DNA of 64,000 nt from Prevotella sp. E9-3 (lineage in GTDB: Bacteria; Bacteroidota; Bacteroidia; Bacteroidales; Bacteroidaceae), in assembly GCF_022024015.1 (NCBI RefSeq), contig NZ_CP091786.1, positions 3,286,001 through 3,350,000 of the forward strand. The letters are read 5' to 3'. Below are positions 37,682 to 46,356 of the stretch, piece after piece. The first letter of the stretch is position 1; each line of letters starts with the position of its first letter. Below the pieces are notes generated by a model, which was given only the letters and a program-made list of their open reading frames with translations, was not told where the DNA came from and ran no database searches. The translations under genes were made by a program, and so were the position numbers.

Positions 37682-37808
37682 TCAAAGTCTGTTTTGAGAT
37701 ATCAAGAGGGGTATTTTTTGTTCTAGTTTGCGATTTCCTTTTGTCAAAATAATCGAATATTTGTCTAAAGAACGTGTACAATTTTAACACTTGACAGAAC
37801 ACTGAAAA
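37682..37808. repeat. 127-bp direct repeat, left copy
   Basis: Identical in length to 43878-44004 with two base differences over 127 bp. Together the copies bound a 6.07-kb accessory segment. The left copy is about 95 bp upstream of the MntA/HepT promoter. Confidence 0.9.
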
Positions 37809-39991: not shown

Positions 39992-40279
39992 TCAGCAGAA
40001 ATCCCCATGATTTAGAAAGGCATCTAATGTCTCTGAAGGTAATTCGTCCGTTGTCAATGGACGAATTTCAATATGTCCTTTGTCGCCTACAGGAATGATG
40101 CTGTTTTGTAAATCGTCCGCTGACAATGGACGATTCTCGAACATACTGCACCATGCCTCATAGAAGATACGCATACGTTTGATGCTGGTCTCAGAAAAAC
40201 CTCTTAGCCCAGGCAGCTCCTGTTGCAGCAATTCTGAGATGGTACCAATAGCATTGCTGCCCCATCTTGCATGTTTCAT
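39992..40279 (-). pseudogene. Truncated YhcG/DUF1016 PD-(D/E)XK nuclease (N-terminal-domain remnant)
   Basis: 95 residues. WGSNAIGTISELLQQELPGLRGFSETSIKRMRIFYEAW is the N-terminal-domain core of YhcG-like nucleases, but about 40 residues normally before it are missing, and the frame stops at DAFLNHGDFC just where the nuclease domain should begin. The catalytic domain is absent. It is 46 bp upstream of the RhuM gene on the same strand. Confidence 0.65.
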
Positions 40280-40369: not shown

Positions 40370-40963
40370 TCAATAAACGAAAAACATTTTTTTCTGAGTA
40401 TTTAAGTTCATAAATCGCTGTATGGCATCATTCATACAATATGTTGACTGATATTCACTATACATAGCCATAAAACGATTTGTTGCTTCATGGGCAACAA
40501 CAAGATCATATGAACCTATACAATTCTTACAAAGATTTTCTGGTTTAGGATTTCCAAATAAGAAATTGGATAAATATAGACCATGACACACATTAAGTGA
40601 TAGAAACAAATTGTTATTGGAAGTTTTATTTAGTTCTGATATTTTTGATATTAACTTTGGCCACGAAATATAGTTGTTAGCACAAATACCATAGCCATAG
40701 AAACATCCATGAGTGTCTATATGGAGAATAGGAATTTCATTATTTGTCTTCACTTTTGAAATAATAATATCCATAGTATTGTCCCAATCAGAAGCATTAT
40801 TTAAAACGATTCTGCACATTTGTAACAAATTTTTATTCACAGAATTAAAAAGTATATTGGAATGAGTATACTCATGTGGTTGAAGAAAGCATATTTGATA
40901 TATTATGTTATATTTGGGATAAATCATAATCTCTAAATCACAATTACAAATCAAATACCTCAA
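40370..40963 (-). CDS. Small caspase-like (CHAT/C14-type) cysteine protease candidate
   Basis: 197 residues, AT-rich. The pattern IPILHIDTHGCFYGYG (H85 in DTHG), then 41 residues later LFLSLNVCHG (C126), matches the His/Cys dyad layout of the caspase/CHAT clan: a hydrophobic strand ending in H-G, and the next strand ending in C-x-G. Helical segments in between and after (SYDLVVAHEATNRFMAMY) also fit. There is no attached sensor domain. It is the last gene of a tight four-gene leftward operon with two membrane proteins, so it may mature or activate one of them. Clan membership is my inference from motifs; no close family is recognised. Confidence 0.55.
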   Translation of the reverse strand: MRYLICNCDLEIMIYPKYNIIYQICFLQPHEYTHSNILFNSVNKNLLQMCRIVLNNASDWDNTMDIIISKVKTNNEIPILHIDTHGCFYGYGICANNYISWPKLISKISELNKTSNNNLFLSLNVCHGLYLSNFLFGNPKPENLCKNCIGSYDLVVAHEATNRFMAMYSEYQSTYCMNDAIQRFMNLNTQKKMFFVY

Positions 40964-40983
40964 AAAATGAAGACATTAAGAAT

Positions 40984-41388
40984 TTATTCTTTTTTCGTTG
41001 CTTCCTTAACAATATGAGATAGGAACTCTAACGTTTCTTTTAAATTCCTGATTTCTTGTTCAGAATAATTAACCTTAGAATATAAGGTATCAATAATTGC
41101 TTGCTGTTTTATTATTATTTCTTGCAATTGGCGATATTTTTCTTTATTACTATTCTGCCATTGGCGGATTTTTTTATATCCCCAGGGGATAAGAATTGAG
41201 GAAAAACCTAAAGGACAAAGCATTAATGCGACTGTAGAAGCTAAAGAAGATAATGCTGTAGCAGAAGTAATTGTTGCAATAGAAATACCCATTTTCCCCA
41301 AACTAGAAGAAATATCTTGCTGAGGGTTATCAATGGTCAGATCGACCGCTTTTAAGACATTTGTAAGTTCAAGATTTGTTTTTTTCAC
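40984..41388 (-). CDS. Small membrane protein with C-terminal coiled coil (paralogue of 42830-43357)
   Basis: 134 residues. Residues about 30-70 are hydrophobic and Ala/Ser/Gly-rich (SIATITSATALSSLAST, then CPLGFSSILIPWG), followed by a basic turn (YKKIRQWQ) and a coiled coil (about 78-132). The coiled coil aligns without gaps to that of the 175-residue protein encoded first in the operon (pattern E-K-x-R-x-L-x-E, S-E-x-x-I-x-x-L, V-K-E). The pair could form a mixed membrane complex. No known family recognised. It is 2 bp after the 478-residue gene and 20 bp before the caspase-like gene. Confidence 0.7.
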   Translation of the reverse strand: MKKTNLELTNVLKAVDLTIDNPQQDISSSLGKMGISIATITSATALSSLASTVALMLCPLGFSSILIPWGYKKIRQWQNSNKEKYRQLQEIIIKQQAIIDTLYSKVNYSEQEIRNLKETLEFLSHIVKEATKKE

Positions 41389-41390
41389 TT

Positions 41391-42827
41391 TTATTCAAAA
41401 TAATAATCGATTTTTCTAATTTCTTCTTCTAATGTTTTATCCAATTCTTGTTGTATGAATTGTTCTTTTACTCGTGTAATGAATCTAACATCTGCGAACA
41501 ATCTGTACAAAGTGACTAACAAGCCACCTAAATCTAACTTTTTCCATGCTGCTTCATTTCCCATATATGCACTTACACCAACATAACTCAAATTTAGGGT
41601 TGATGAGATTGCATCGGAATACAACAATATCTTCCTTGTTCGTACTTCATAATGATCCCTGCTTCCATCAATAGCAGGACGATAGAATAAGCCATGCATT
41701 AAACCAATTATCATATTTATTAGTATTGCAACTACAGCCTGACTTCCTACAATTTCGACGTCTCGCAACAAACACAAAGAATCATAATGTTCAGAATACA
41801 GTTTGCTTGCTAAATCAGGATTGAAAGTTTCAAGTAAAGGTACGGGTAATCCCCACTTTGTAAAAACATCTGATTTTAAATGTGCTGCTTGAGCAAAGAG
41901 AGCTGCTGGTAAACGGAATTTGTCTTCCAACAGACTATCATAAACTTCGTAAAACATCCTTCCCGCTGTTATCCTTTCACTCATTACAGCATTAGGGTAT
42001 GTTACTCTATAAGTACCAAACTGAAACTTTTTTGATAGTGTAATAGTGCATGTCATGATATTGGCAGTACCAAAAATCCATCCTATAATTGGATCATGGC
42101 CCAACGTATTTTGTCTATGCATACCCTTGCCACCTTCATCAAATCCTACAGGACCACCATTTTGTGCATCATAAGGACATCGTCCTGTTGTTTTTGTACC
42201 ATCTGCCTTTGGATATTGACCAAAGACAATATCTTTCCATGTCGGATATTTTTCGCTTTTAATATTATCACGATCAGAATGTTTCTTATTGTATTCGTCT
42301 TCAGCCTTCTTTTTGATTTTATCGCCTTTTTTATTATCCATTCTCTTGGACTCATCAATGGTTTGCCCCAAATCCCCAACTAATTGTTGGATTATAATCC
42401 AACGAGCAGTTTGAAGAGCTGTCGCAATTATAAGAAATGCCAAATCTGTTTTGCACAACTTTGTCTTTTGTGCAAAAAGATTGTTTATACGTTCTATATC
42501 AGCTTTGCAATATTGAATTTCTGAAGCAGAAAGAAAATCCTCAATTTCTAGCTGATATGGTATTTCTTTATTAGCATTTTCTACCAAACTTTCCCATGAT
42601 GGTATATCTGTTCTTTTAATCTTGATAGAATTTCTTGTATCATTAGGAACGAATGGTGGCATTTTCACACCAAAGGTGTCTGCAATTTTTTGGGCCTCAT
42701 CAATGAGTTTCTCAGTTTCTACTATATTCTTTTCAACTGAGGCAGATGTTGAATTTATTTTTTTACGTTGGTTTTCAAGAACTTTTAATATTTCTTTTTC
42801 ACCCTTTGTATATTTGTACTCTCCCAT
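41391..42827 (-). CDS. Unknown 478-residue protein of the caspase-like operon
   Basis: Not recognised. Residues 10-55 are a coiled coil; 128-150 are a hydrophobic helix (LAFLIIATALQTARWIIIQQLV); 165-200 are very charged; the core 214-265 is the most conserved-looking part (GRCPYDAQNGGPVGF, then HRQNTLGHDPIIGWIFGTANIMT); 360-382 is a second hydrophobic segment (VVAILINMIIGLMHGLF). The C-terminal 25 residues are charged and helical. It lies between the two paralogous membrane-protein genes with 2-bp gaps on both sides, so the three are surely expressed together. It might be a membrane-associated effector or scaffold; this is inference only. Confidence 0.75.
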   Translation of the reverse strand: MGEYKYTKGEKEILKVLENQRKKINSTSASVEKNIVETEKLIDEAQKIADTFGVKMPPFVPNDTRNSIKIKRTDIPSWESLVENANKEIPYQLEIEDFLSASEIQYCKADIERINNLFAQKTKLCKTDLAFLIIATALQTARWIIIQQLVGDLGQTIDESKRMDNKKGDKIKKKAEDEYNKKHSDRDNIKSEKYPTWKDIVFGQYPKADGTKTTGRCPYDAQNGGPVGFDEGGKGMHRQNTLGHDPIIGWIFGTANIMTCTITLSKKFQFGTYRVTYPNAVMSERITAGRMFYEVYDSLLEDKFRLPAALFAQAAHLKSDVFTKWGLPVPLLETFNPDLASKLYSEHYDSLCLLRDVEIVGSQAVVAILINMIIGLMHGLFYRPAIDGSRDHYEVRTRKILLYSDAISSTLNLSYVGVSAYMGNEAAWKKLDLGGLLVTLYRLFADVRFITRVKEQFIQQELDKTLEEEIRKIDYYFE

Positions 42828-42829
42828 TT

Positions 42830-43357
42830 TTAATTGTTTTTAAGATCTTCTTGCATCTCTTTAACCGCACGTTGCAGCAAAATAATAAGGCCTTCGAGAT
42901 ATTTTATACGTTCTTCTGAAAGAGAACTTCTATTAGCCAACTCTGCTTCTAAAGCGGCAATTTTTGCAACAGCCTCTTTTAAGAGTCTTTCTTTCTCTTG
43001 AGTTAGTTTCTTGTTTCTTATGCATCGAGCCCAATAAGCAGCCCCACCACCAACAATAGCTACAGGTGCCGCTAAAACAAAAACACCAGCCACCATACCA
43101 CCACCAACTAATGAGCCTGCTGCAGCGAGACCAGATGTTATACCTGCAGCTGATAATCCTACAGTACCTGCTCCATAAAGTGCGGCAAAAGAAATAGCTC
43201 CACCGCCAACAGCTCCTAAAGCACCTGCTATTGCATCAGGAATAGAACTATTTACTATAGTTCTGCTCTTATCCTTTATCGCTTCATTAGACTCATTGAT
43301 AACTCTCTCTACAGTCTTTAAAGAATCAATTGTTGAAAAGTTTTTCTTTTTTCCCAT
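42830..43357 (-). CDS. Glycine-rich membrane protein with C-terminal coiled coil; ISG12-like pattern
   Basis: 175 residues. Residues 41-110 are almost entirely Gly/Ala/hydrophobic, with GTVGLSAAGITSGLAAAG and LVGGGMVAGVFVLAA, a pattern like that of the eukaryotic interferon-induced 6-16/ISG12 membrane proteins. A basic segment (RCIRNKK) and a coiled coil (about 116-175) follow. The coiled coil is paralogous to the 134-residue protein of the same operon. Such Gly-zipper bundles often insert into membranes or form pores. First gene of the four-gene unit; no convincing -7 box found directly before it. Confidence 0.7.
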   Translation of the reverse strand: MGKKKNFSTIDSLKTVERVINESNEAIKDKSRTIVNSSIPDAIAGALGAVGGGAISFAALYGAGTVGLSAAGITSGLAAAGSLVGGGMVAGVFVLAAPVAIVGGGAAYWARCIRNKKLTQEKERLLKEAVAKIAALEAELANRSSLSEERIKYLEGLIILLQRAVKEMQEDLKNN

Positions 43358-43409: not shown

Positions 43410-43688
43410 TCACGTCCTCTCTACATACTTGCCTAGTAAGGTTCTGGAAAACCCGGTGTCACAAATATAGTAAGGCAGTCCGTGCCCTTCATCTGGGTAC
43501 AAGACTGGCTTGACTAAACTCGATTTGACTTCTATTGGGTTAAATTTTCCAGATTTAACTAGGTCAAAGCTTGTCAGCCTGTCGTGCAATATGTCAAATA
43601 GAGCGTTGCCGCTCTTCTTCTCTAAGATTGCAGGGGCTAAGATAGGGAATATTTCTGAAACGGCAAAGTATTTACTCACGTTTTTCAT
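43410..43688 (-). CDS. Small unknown protein upstream of the four-gene operon
   Basis: 92 residues, MKNVSKYFAVSEIFPILAP at the start and CDTGFSRTLLGKYVERT at the end. No family is recognised. Base composition is closer to the core genome than to the AT-rich operon downstream. It lies between a truncated gene end (43712-43900) and the operon (53 bp gap), so it may itself be a fragment. Confidence 0.4.
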   Translation of the reverse strand: MKNVSKYFAVSEIFPILAPAILEKKSGNALFDILHDRLTSFDLVKSGKFNPIEVKSSLVKPVLYPDEGHGLPYYICDTGFSRTLLGKYVERT

Positions 43689-43711: not shown

Positions 43712-43900
43712 TTACAAACTTCCATTACCATCTTTCAGGCGGTAGATGATGTAATTGTTCATTCTGCCTACTGTATTCAGCGTACGACGATCTGCCGCAG
43801 AGAGATAAATGTGGTAATCGTTGTAAAGATGCTGGTTCAGCAGGTCGAAATCAATATCTGTAAAGGTAGGATTGCTGTCAAAGTCTGTATTGAGATATCA
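43712..43900 (-). pseudogene. C-terminal fragment of an unidentified gene, cut inside the right 127-bp repeat
   Basis: The reverse strand reads DIDFDLLNQHLYNDYHIYL and then RRTLNTVGRMNNYIIYRLKDG to a stop at 43712. It is open upstream only about 20 bp into the 127-bp repeat, where an in-frame stop appears and there is no start codon. So a gene was joined to the repeat, leaving only its last 55-60 codons. Confidence 0.5.
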
Positions 43901-44004
43901 AGAGGGGTACTTTTTGTTCTAGTTTGCGATTTCCTTTTGTCAAAATAATCGAATATTTGTCTAAAGAACGTGTACAATTTTAACACTTGACAGAACACTG
44001 AAAA
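43878..44004. repeat. 127-bp direct repeat, right copy
   Basis: Matches 37682-37808 along its whole length with two substitutions. Its first 20 bp run into the truncated gene at 43712-43900, which suggests that the right boundary was made by insertion or recombination. Confidence 0.9.
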
Positions 44005-44472: not shown

Positions 44473-46356
44473 ATGAAACAGATAATGAAGAATTTAATGC
44501 AATGGGTGCTGGCCGCCGCCCTCATCTGCGGCACAAGCGTATTCACCTCGTGTTCGTCGGACGACGACGACAATTCTTCTCCTAAATCAGGAGCGAACAG
44601 CGAACTTGTTGGTCAATGGTATTCCGACGTGTCGGGGGATACTTACGCCGCCTGGACATTCGGTAAGGCATGGCAGCAGACGGAGTTCAATGCCGACGGC
44701 ACAGGAACCACCACCATCTATTACCTTAACAACGATGACGCCGTGGGCCGTGAGCGCTATTCGTTCACCTATACCGCCACGGACGGACTGCTGACGATGG
44801 ACATCGCGGAGAGGAACACCAAGACAACAGCCAGATATGCCATGAGCGACGGCAAGTTGCTGCTGATGGAGGGCGAAGACCAGACGGTCATGCAGAAGAT
44901 GGATGACGCAAAGGCTAAGGACTTTGATGCGTGGAACAGGAAGGAAAACCTGGTCAATGTGCCACAGCCTGCCCGCTACACCGTCTTTGTCTATGGCAAT
45001 GCGGGAGGCACCATGGATAAGATTATTGAGTATGGCTTCTGGGAGAAGATACAGCCGCTGCTCACGGACCACAACAACGTCCGTGTGGTCTGCTTCTACA
45101 AATATGGCAAGGAAAAGTCCGAGGATGGCAAAGACTTTACAGGTAAGTATGCCGACCCGGGTGACATCGTATGGTTCGATCTGAACGACACGACCAAACT
45201 GGAGAATATTCGTAACGGAGGACTTCGGGCGCTGGGGTATGAAAAGGAGGCCCAGGAACTGAAACTGTGCGACCCCACGACCGTCAGCGCGTTCATCCAG
45301 ATCAGCAGTCTGGTGTGTCCTGCCGAGCAGTATGTGTTCAGCATCTGGGGACATGGCAGCGGACTAAGCCCCATGGCCGATGTCCCCGGCAAATACAAAG
45401 CCCCCGCCGCTGCACCTGCTACCCGAGGGGTCATTGGCGATGAGTGGAATGAACATGAAGAGCTGGATATGTATGAACTGAGTACCGCCATCCGTTCCGC
45501 AGGCTTGAACCGGCTGAACACCATCTTCTTCCACAACTGCCTGATGGGCAACATGGAGACGCTGACCGAGCTGCGCGGCCTGTCCGACTACATTGTGGCC
45601 TCGGCACACCTGCTTGTGAGCGAGGGCGAACTGCTCACGGAATACGTCCGCGGACTGCTGGAGAAGGGGAATACCGAGGATGCCATCGCACAGATGTTTG
45701 AGCGCGTGCATCCGAAATGGGAACAGTCCTATCACGGTTTTAATGACGAAGACGATGGGAGTAAGACAGAGTACTGGTACAACGGCGACTACAAACTCAT
45801 CCGTACCGCCAAGCTCGATGCCATTATCAGTGCCGCCAAGCGCCTCGCAGACAGGCTCCTTGCACTCTACCCCACACAGAAGGATGCCATCGACAAGGCC
45901 ACCAAGGAGGTGTATCGGTTCCATACCCTCATTCTAGATTACTTGTCCCCCAATCAGCGTTCCCTGTTAACCTACGTGAATCCCTTTGTCGATCTGGCAG
46001 ACTATGCACATTGGTTGGCAAAAGAGACTGGCGACACAGAAATGGCTGCCATCTCTGCCGATCTGGACAAAGCCTTCAGCGAAGCCTTCGTCCACTATGC
46101 CGACGTCAACACGAACGAACAGCATCTGGACCACTACACACTGAGCATCTGCCTGACCAACAACAACTTTTACACGGCAGATGCCGCCGAATTGCCTCTT
46201 GTTGATTATTTTGTTCCCAATCATCTGTGCAATTTCGACCAAGGCTACGAGCAGACCACATTCCACAAACTGACGGGATGGGGCAACTGGCTACGCACCA
46301 ACCAGCAACTGCTTTGGGGCAATCCCACAAGCGACGGCGGTGGTCCGCTCAAGTGA
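44473..46356 (+). CDS. Clostripain-family (C11) cysteine peptidase, lipoprotein
   Basis: 627 residues. A lipoprotein signal ends FTSCSSDDDDN (Cys 27). Residues about 40-160 form a lipocalin-like beta domain (LVGQWYSD...). The C11 peptidase domain (about 165-600) has H294 in SIWGHGSGLSP and C356 in FFHNCLMGNMET, the catalytic pair. Clostripain-like enzymes cut after Arg or Lys and are surface virulence or nutrition factors in Bacteroidales. The G+C content is visibly higher than in the island to its left. Confidence 0.9.
   Translation: MKQIMKNLMQWVLAAALICGTSVFTSCSSDDDDNSSPKSGANSELVGQWYSDVSGDTYAAWTFGKAWQQTEFNADGTGTTTIYYLNNDDAVGRERYSFTYTATDGLLTMDIAERNTKTTARYAMSDGKLLLMEGEDQTVMQKMDDAKAKDFDAWNRKENLVNVPQPARYTVFVYGNAGGTMDKIIEYGFWEKIQPLLTDHNNVRVVCFYKYGKEKSEDGKDFTGKYADPGDIVWFDLNDTTKLENIRNGGLRALGYEKEAQELKLCDPTTVSAFIQISSLVCPAEQYVFSIWGHGSGLSPMADVPGKYKAPAAAPATRGVIGDEWNEHEELDMYELSTAIRSAGLNRLNTIFFHNCLMGNMETLTELRGLSDYIVASAHLLVSEGELLTEYVRGLLEKGNTEDAIAQMFERVHPKWEQSYHGFNDEDDGSKTEYWYNGDYKLIRTAKLDAIISAAKRLADRLLALYPTQKDAIDKATKEVYRFHTLILDYLSPNQRSLLTYVNPFVDLADYAHWLAKETGDTEMAAISADLDKAFSEAFVHYADVNTNEQHLDHYTLSICLTNNNFYTADAAELPLVDYFVPNHLCNFDQGYEQTTFHKLTGWGNWLRTNQQLLWGNPTSDGGGPLK

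Follow-up and report, generated by a model that had tools for sequence, protein, structure and literature searches.

A probable operon of Prevotella that joins a BnzB-family gene and two small membrane proteins to a predicted caspase-like protease

Results

A probable four-gene operon combining Bunzi-like genes with a caspase-like gene

We analyzed a 64,000-nt stretch of the genome of the gut bacterium Prevotella sp. E9-3 (hereafter the window; the genome is a single 3.73-Mb contig) and found in it a four-gene run that encodes a BnzB-family protein, two small membrane/coiled-coil proteins and a predicted caspase-like protease. We give an even chance to the reading that this is a Bunzi-like, membrane-anchored anti-phage operon that acquired the protease. 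An earlier annotation of the window made from its letters (the sequence-only reading) had described four tightly packed genes on one strand, and ORF calling recovered that run: all four ORFs are on the minus strand, in the transcription order 175, 478, 134 and 197 aa, separated by 2, 2 and, if gene 4 uses a TTG start, 20 nt. The features in window coordinates, with the evidence for each, are as follows.

42830-43357, minus strand: gene 1, a 175-aa protein with a glycine-rich membrane hairpin and a coiled coil, a stand-alone counterpart of the BnzA membrane segment (ORF, alignment, BnzA match of a relative)
41391-42827, minus strand: gene 2, a 478-aa member of a BnzB-family side branch, not a canonical BnzB (PADLOC, alignment A5)
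40984-41388, minus strand: gene 3, a 134-aa membrane and coiled-coil protein with a GTG start, the second BnzA-segment-like protein (PADLOC BnzA match)
40370-40927, minus strand (to 40963, 197 aa, if TTG is the start): gene 4, a predicted caspase-like protease of 185 aa from ATG, with H73 and C114 (fold, dyad)
37682-37808, strand not given: left copy of a 127-nt direct repeat, 98% identical to 43878-44004
43878-44004, strand not given: right-hand partner of this repeat, also 127 nt and 98% identical to the left copy

The longest stop-free stretch in the region was 482 codons, against a maximum of 166 in 200 single-base shuffles. GC3 of the four genes was 21.0, 24.4, 24.4 and 23.7%, compared with 42.7-68.6% in the seven flanking genes measured. 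The 38 non-overlapping ORFs of the window with 150 aa or more averaged 51.7 (sd 11.2), three of the four operon genes being among them. The AT-rich, deviant composition proposed earlier was thus confirmed. So was the repeat-bounded island: the direct repeat pair encloses about 6.2 kb that contains the operon, MntA-like, HepT-like and RhuM genes (all three confirmed by Pfam) and a truncated DUF1016 gene. The right-hand flank has 20 matches in the genome, of which only the two bracketing copies reach 127 nt at 98% identity. PADLOC placed defence-candidate genes next to the operon, in support of the defence-type neighbours that the sequence-only reading had named.

No promoter-like or terminator-like match was found in the gaps between the four genes with E. 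coli-type patterns, which are of limited use here. A TAnnTTTG motif, which we take to be the Bacteroidota promoter type, lies 112 nt before gene 1, inside a 92-aa ORF (window 43410-43688) directly upstream of the operon that had no Pfam, PADLOC or NCBIfam match. The truncated DUF1016 gene (window 39992-40279) encodes a 95-aa N-terminal domain and is apparently the remnant of a longer gene. Adjoining the island is a gene for a lipoprotein-like protein of the Clostripain family (Peptidase_C11; window 44473-46356). This puts another member of the caspase clan within 4 kb, but it is of a secreted type and its gene has a higher GC.

Gene 4 encodes a predicted caspase-like protease

Because its relatives P0001 and P0002 begin there, the ATG at 40927 (185 aa, gap of 56 nt) is the better-supported start of gene 4, and the residues previously numbered H85 and C126 accordingly become H73 and C114. 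In clan CD, the catalytic dyad consists of a His-Gly and a Cys that follow two core strands. The 197-residue protein had been taken for a small caspase-like enzyme with these two residues, and both fold and dyad bear this out: a clan CD/CHAT-caspase fold was found, H73, G74 and C114 are invariant in 58/58 family members, and H73 and C114 directly follow strands 66-72 and 108-113. On this alignment and model evidence, gene 4 is a predicted caspase-like protease with a clear active site. The aligned fold spans residues 1-185 and leaves no room for a further domain. In its close clade there are two other members among 5.8 billion proteins; as the last residues of gene 4 differ from those of P0001, its C terminus may be altered. 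Both points weigh against our main reading. The PADLOC BovA model did not match gene 4 and weakly matched one of the 58 family members (E 0.005).

Gene 2 belongs to a side branch of the BnzB family

The 478-residue protein, formerly described as unknown, proved to be a BnzB-family member. It matched PADLOC BnzB over nearly its full length (residues 14-472, E 1.5e-25), and all 73 members of alignment A5, drawn from the window, protein databases and genomes, carried a BnzB match. Gene 2 scored 88 bits, however, whereas canonical BnzB reaches about 500. We found at least 1948 relatives; scanning named genomes with gene 2 yielded 134 candidate stretches; 102 of these encode relatives, and 80 were retained as loci. 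The predicted model of gene 2 is confident (pLDDT 89.7, pTM 0.64) and mostly helical, and had no convincing match among solved structures. Several His and Asp residues are among those invariant in the family (for example, H237, H244, D245, H316, D320 and D432), and we conjecture that they might form a metal or active site.

The searches with gene 2 also reached two loci with a full BnzA. In the clostridial locus L077, a BnzB-family gene is followed by BnzA (E 2.4e-122). On the Lactococcus plasmid pLLI11B (L178:3944-10364), a same-strand run opens with a WYL gene and a 205-aa gene, continues with a BnzB-like gene (E 1e-17), and then has BnzA (E 5.1e-128) followed by canonical BnzB (E 2.7e-150). 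Since a BnzB-like gene stands near canonical BnzB in L178, the family of gene 2 is broader than canonical BnzB, and the arrangements in L178 and L077 together indicate that gene 2 belongs to a side branch of the BnzB family. L178 itself is an enlarged Bunzi locus that has two BnzB paralogues and lies behind a WYL regulator. BnzB-family genes stand behind WYL regulators on lactococcal plasmids; on pNP40 (L177:4992-8579), a phage-resistance plasmid according to PMC8194271, three successive genes encode the WYL regulator, a BnzB-like protein and an unnamed protein of 486 aa. On an [Eubacterium] eligens plasmid (L179:5911-8945), a BnzB-like gene is followed by a dynamin-annotated gene that matches LeoA (E 2.4e-10). 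Identity is 31-35% for relatives on plasmids and 23-24% for those from two phage records.

Genes 1 and 3 resemble the membrane segment of BnzA

The description of genes 1 and 3 as membrane/coiled-coil proteins was supported. Of 38 proteins whose genes adjoin other BnzB-family genes, 24 were aligned with gene 1, to which they are 43-57% identical. The alignment has 27 invariant columns. The hydrophobic part holds 18 of them, within residues 48-98, and 9 of these 18 are Gly; the hydrophobic stretches themselves (residues 42-61 and 76-110) contain 25-26% Gly. A relative of gene 1 on the IMG/VR contig L155 matched BnzA positions 293-410 (E 1.2e-12), whereas gene 1 itself matched PADLOC BnzA only at E 0.066. 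Gene 3 matched positions 328-418 of the 544 in the BnzA model (E 4.2e-5) and is akin to small Bacteroidales proteins encoded beside BnzB-family genes.

A small membrane partner was present within two genes and on the same strand in 41/80 BnzB-family loci, and a Parabacteroides record (L004) repeats the arrangement in which BnzB stands between two membrane proteins. On the IMG/VR contigs, as read by eye, a BnzB-family gene and its membrane partner precede terminase-like genes in L154 and follow serine-recombinase-like genes in L155, the relatives in these two being 40-42% identical; in L156, a lone BnzB-family gene comes after serine-recombinase-like genes. Six Prevotella loci (L131, L135, L137, L138, L139 and L143) share a repeated chromosomal setting beside an MFS-like transporter (recognized by eye), in which a BnzB-family gene is accompanied by a 131-135-aa partner and a gene for a secreted-looking protein of 215-258 aa. 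This setting is a hint that one branch may have a role outside defence.

Relatives of the caspase sit in several kinds of defence operon

The caspase family was detected in 6/301 genomes of the taxonomic family (with a narrow profile; G298 among them looks like a chance match), 6/395 of the class and 12/398 of the genus; each count includes the window's own genome. That genome has a second copy, of 263 aa, around G000:C1:2956282-2957058. We read the neighbourhoods of 18 caspase loci besides the window, leaving out five other class-level loci. The catalytic His is kept at all 18, and the Cys at all except L197, which a stop codon shortens. In L149, Ser follows the His (His-Ser for His-Gly) and also occupies the N100 position, and the caspase of L200 is without the Trp. 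In L149 (3303-5294, the same gene as L086), the caspase-family domain is fused to a Ser/Thr protein kinase in a protein of 663 aa.

The family lies within two Hachiman operons of Prevotella. In L195 (1598-6316), HamA (E 8.3e-64) and a helicase precede a gene that weakly matches Trypsin_2 (E 2.6e-4, short of the Pfam cut-off), and the caspase comes 18 nt after it; in L196 (1130-8373), an HSP90-like ATPase, the caspase, HamA (E 9.8e-22) and a helicase follow one another, with gaps of 18 and 16 nt flanking the caspase. Genes for a large membrane protein, the caspase and a Schlafen/AlbA_2 protein are tightly grouped in L194, and L148 has, by eye, the same Schlafen-type layout. The caspase of L191 is in a run with a cytosine methyltransferase, and those of L147, L153 and L197 are preceded by a DNA methyltransferase-like gene (by eye) in one recurring arrangement. 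L152 is Gabija-like, not tight: the caspase follows a UvrD-like gene (by eye) at a distance of 313 nt, and this gene in turn comes after an OLD-TOPRIM gene. A Sel1-repeat protein precedes the caspase of L192, and a WG-repeat-like gene (by eye) that of L193. No clear defence partner was seen at 6/18 loci (L146, L150 and L198-L201), which counts against our main reading. Because its relatives sit inside other, unrelated defence operons, the caspase looks like a swappable protease module.

Alternative readings of the four-gene set

The pairing of caspase and BnzB was seen only at the window, and the four-gene set therefore rests on one locus. No caspase-family gene was present in any of the 80 BnzB-family loci (up to 8 kb each side, several cut by contig ends), even at E up to 10; L002 and L003, among the closest named-genome relatives of the three-gene unit, have none. 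Conversely, none of the 18 other caspase loci read had a BnzB-family neighbour, and among the 18 BnzB-positive and 12 caspase-positive genomes of the genus (two draws of 398) only the window's own was in both. The sequence-only reading had asked for conservation of the set outside this strain; this was seen for genes 1-3 and, apart from them, for the caspase family, but no second example of the whole four-gene set was found. Genes 1-3 may then be a complete Bunzi-like unit, with the caspase an unrelated orphan that happens to lie downstream. These absences favour such an account, as do the caspase loci that have no clear defence partner and the 56-nt gap before the ATG start, longer than the upstream 2-nt gaps. 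We nevertheless regard it as rather unlikely: gene 4 is on the same strand and shares the low GC3 of its neighbours, unlike all seven measured flanks; its family is tightly placed inside other defence operons; and the gaps between the four genes are free of promoter-like and terminator-like matches as far as E. coli-type patterns go. Shared composition, close spacing and the family's habit of joining other defence operons thus support the joint set, although AT-rich genes of separate origin could share a low GC3 by chance.

Two further readings concern what the membrane proteins do. If the pair of BnzB-family gene and membrane protein were a housekeeping module for envelope or stress functions, the caspase would be a regulatory protease. 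The six MFS-adjoining Prevotella loci fit this idea, and the fact that several BnzB-family pairs of the genus occupy a repeated chromosomal setting, not islands, counts against our main reading; other relatives, however, are on IMG/VR contigs, on plasmids and in two phage records, and the copy in the window is AT-rich DNA in a repeat-bracketed stretch, so that we consider a housekeeping role quite improbable. In bacterial gasdermin systems, a protease is encoded beside membrane-acting proteins. By a similar logic, gene 4 would cut gene 1 or gene 3, and the freed hairpins would assemble into a pore. The earlier comparison with such systems stands as an analogy, in that a protease lies beside two membrane proteins, one of which has strongly conserved glycine-rich helices. 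It goes no further than that: as had been noted, none of the four proteins looks like a gasdermin (no match in Pfam or PADLOC), and the membrane proteins here are helical hairpins that are conserved also at loci in which we detected no caspase, which means that cleavage by a caspase cannot be what triggers them in general. To a gasdermin-like mechanism we assign a small probability.

Discussion

Our preferred reading, a Bunzi-like operon with an acquired protease, implies a mechanism that we infer from the gene content. The BnzB-family protein of gene 2 and the membrane/coiled-coil proteins of genes 1 and 3 would form an inner-membrane complex that responds to infection. Gene 4 would be kept inactive until this complex is triggered, and would then cleave a partner or proteins of the host, with growth stop or death of the infected cell as the outcome. 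The three-gene unit would act as a membrane-based abortive-infection module, and gene 4 as an added protease released on sensing.

The view that no described system resembles this set was not supported by the comparison with Bunzi, since gene 2 is a BnzB-family member, the two small proteins are similar to the membrane/coiled-coil part of BnzA, and relatives occur in mobile settings. The operon differs from Bunzi in that it has partial matches in place of a full-length BnzA (544 positions in the PADLOC model), two separate small membrane proteins, an extra caspase-like gene and a BnzB match far below the canonical score. Shango and Bunzi are listed with TerB, function N/A, in the review PMC10952713, whose passage on them gives no Bunzi mechanism and whose domain table has 'bunzi' and the other matched term ('caspase' or 'antiphage') in separate entries. 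No TerB match was found by Pfam in the four operon proteins. In the literature searched, no report of Bunzi paired with a caspase was found among the matches listed; 'hachiman', 'caspase' and 'bacteroid' occur together in one paper, PMC10924106.

According to passages of PMC12799240, proteases have been acquired by several defence systems: these describe pairs of a trypsin and a nuclease in Hachiman, AVAST, Lamassu and DRT, along with caspase-nuclease defence loci (Canu) made up of an MBL-fold pro-nuclease and a caspase with an Ig-like domain. The word 'bunzi' is absent from the main text of that paper. Canu and the nuclease-protease modules of Hachiman and AVAST likewise represent a protease gene added to different defence operons, and the caspase family described here lies within the Hachiman operons L195 and L196. 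The operon differs from Canu in that the partner of its protease is a BnzB/membrane unit; Pfam found no nuclease or Ig-like domain in the four proteins, the model of gene 2 is mostly helical, and the caspase fold fills all of gene 4. From the CHAT proteases (SAVED-CHAT, TPR-CHAT/Craspase and Borvo BovA), gene 4 differs as a stand-alone protein of 185 residues without SAVED or TPR.

The spread of the caspase family over defence operons is the most interesting part of these findings. We suggest tentatively, at somewhat less than an even chance, that this family, which has no clear Pfam or PADLOC model, is an interchangeable immunity module of Bacteroidota that serves Hachiman, Schlafen/AlbA, restriction-type and Bunzi-like membrane operons, offering one chemistry to unrelated infection sensors and here controlling a membrane-embedded effector without a gasdermin. 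A Bunzi-like version without TerB, with a split membrane part and an added protease whose predicted active site is clear, would provide a handle on proteolysis in the response. The occurrence of the family within Hachiman operons extends the trading of proteases among defence systems, as described in passages of PMC12799240, to what may be another protease family and to a membrane-type partner.
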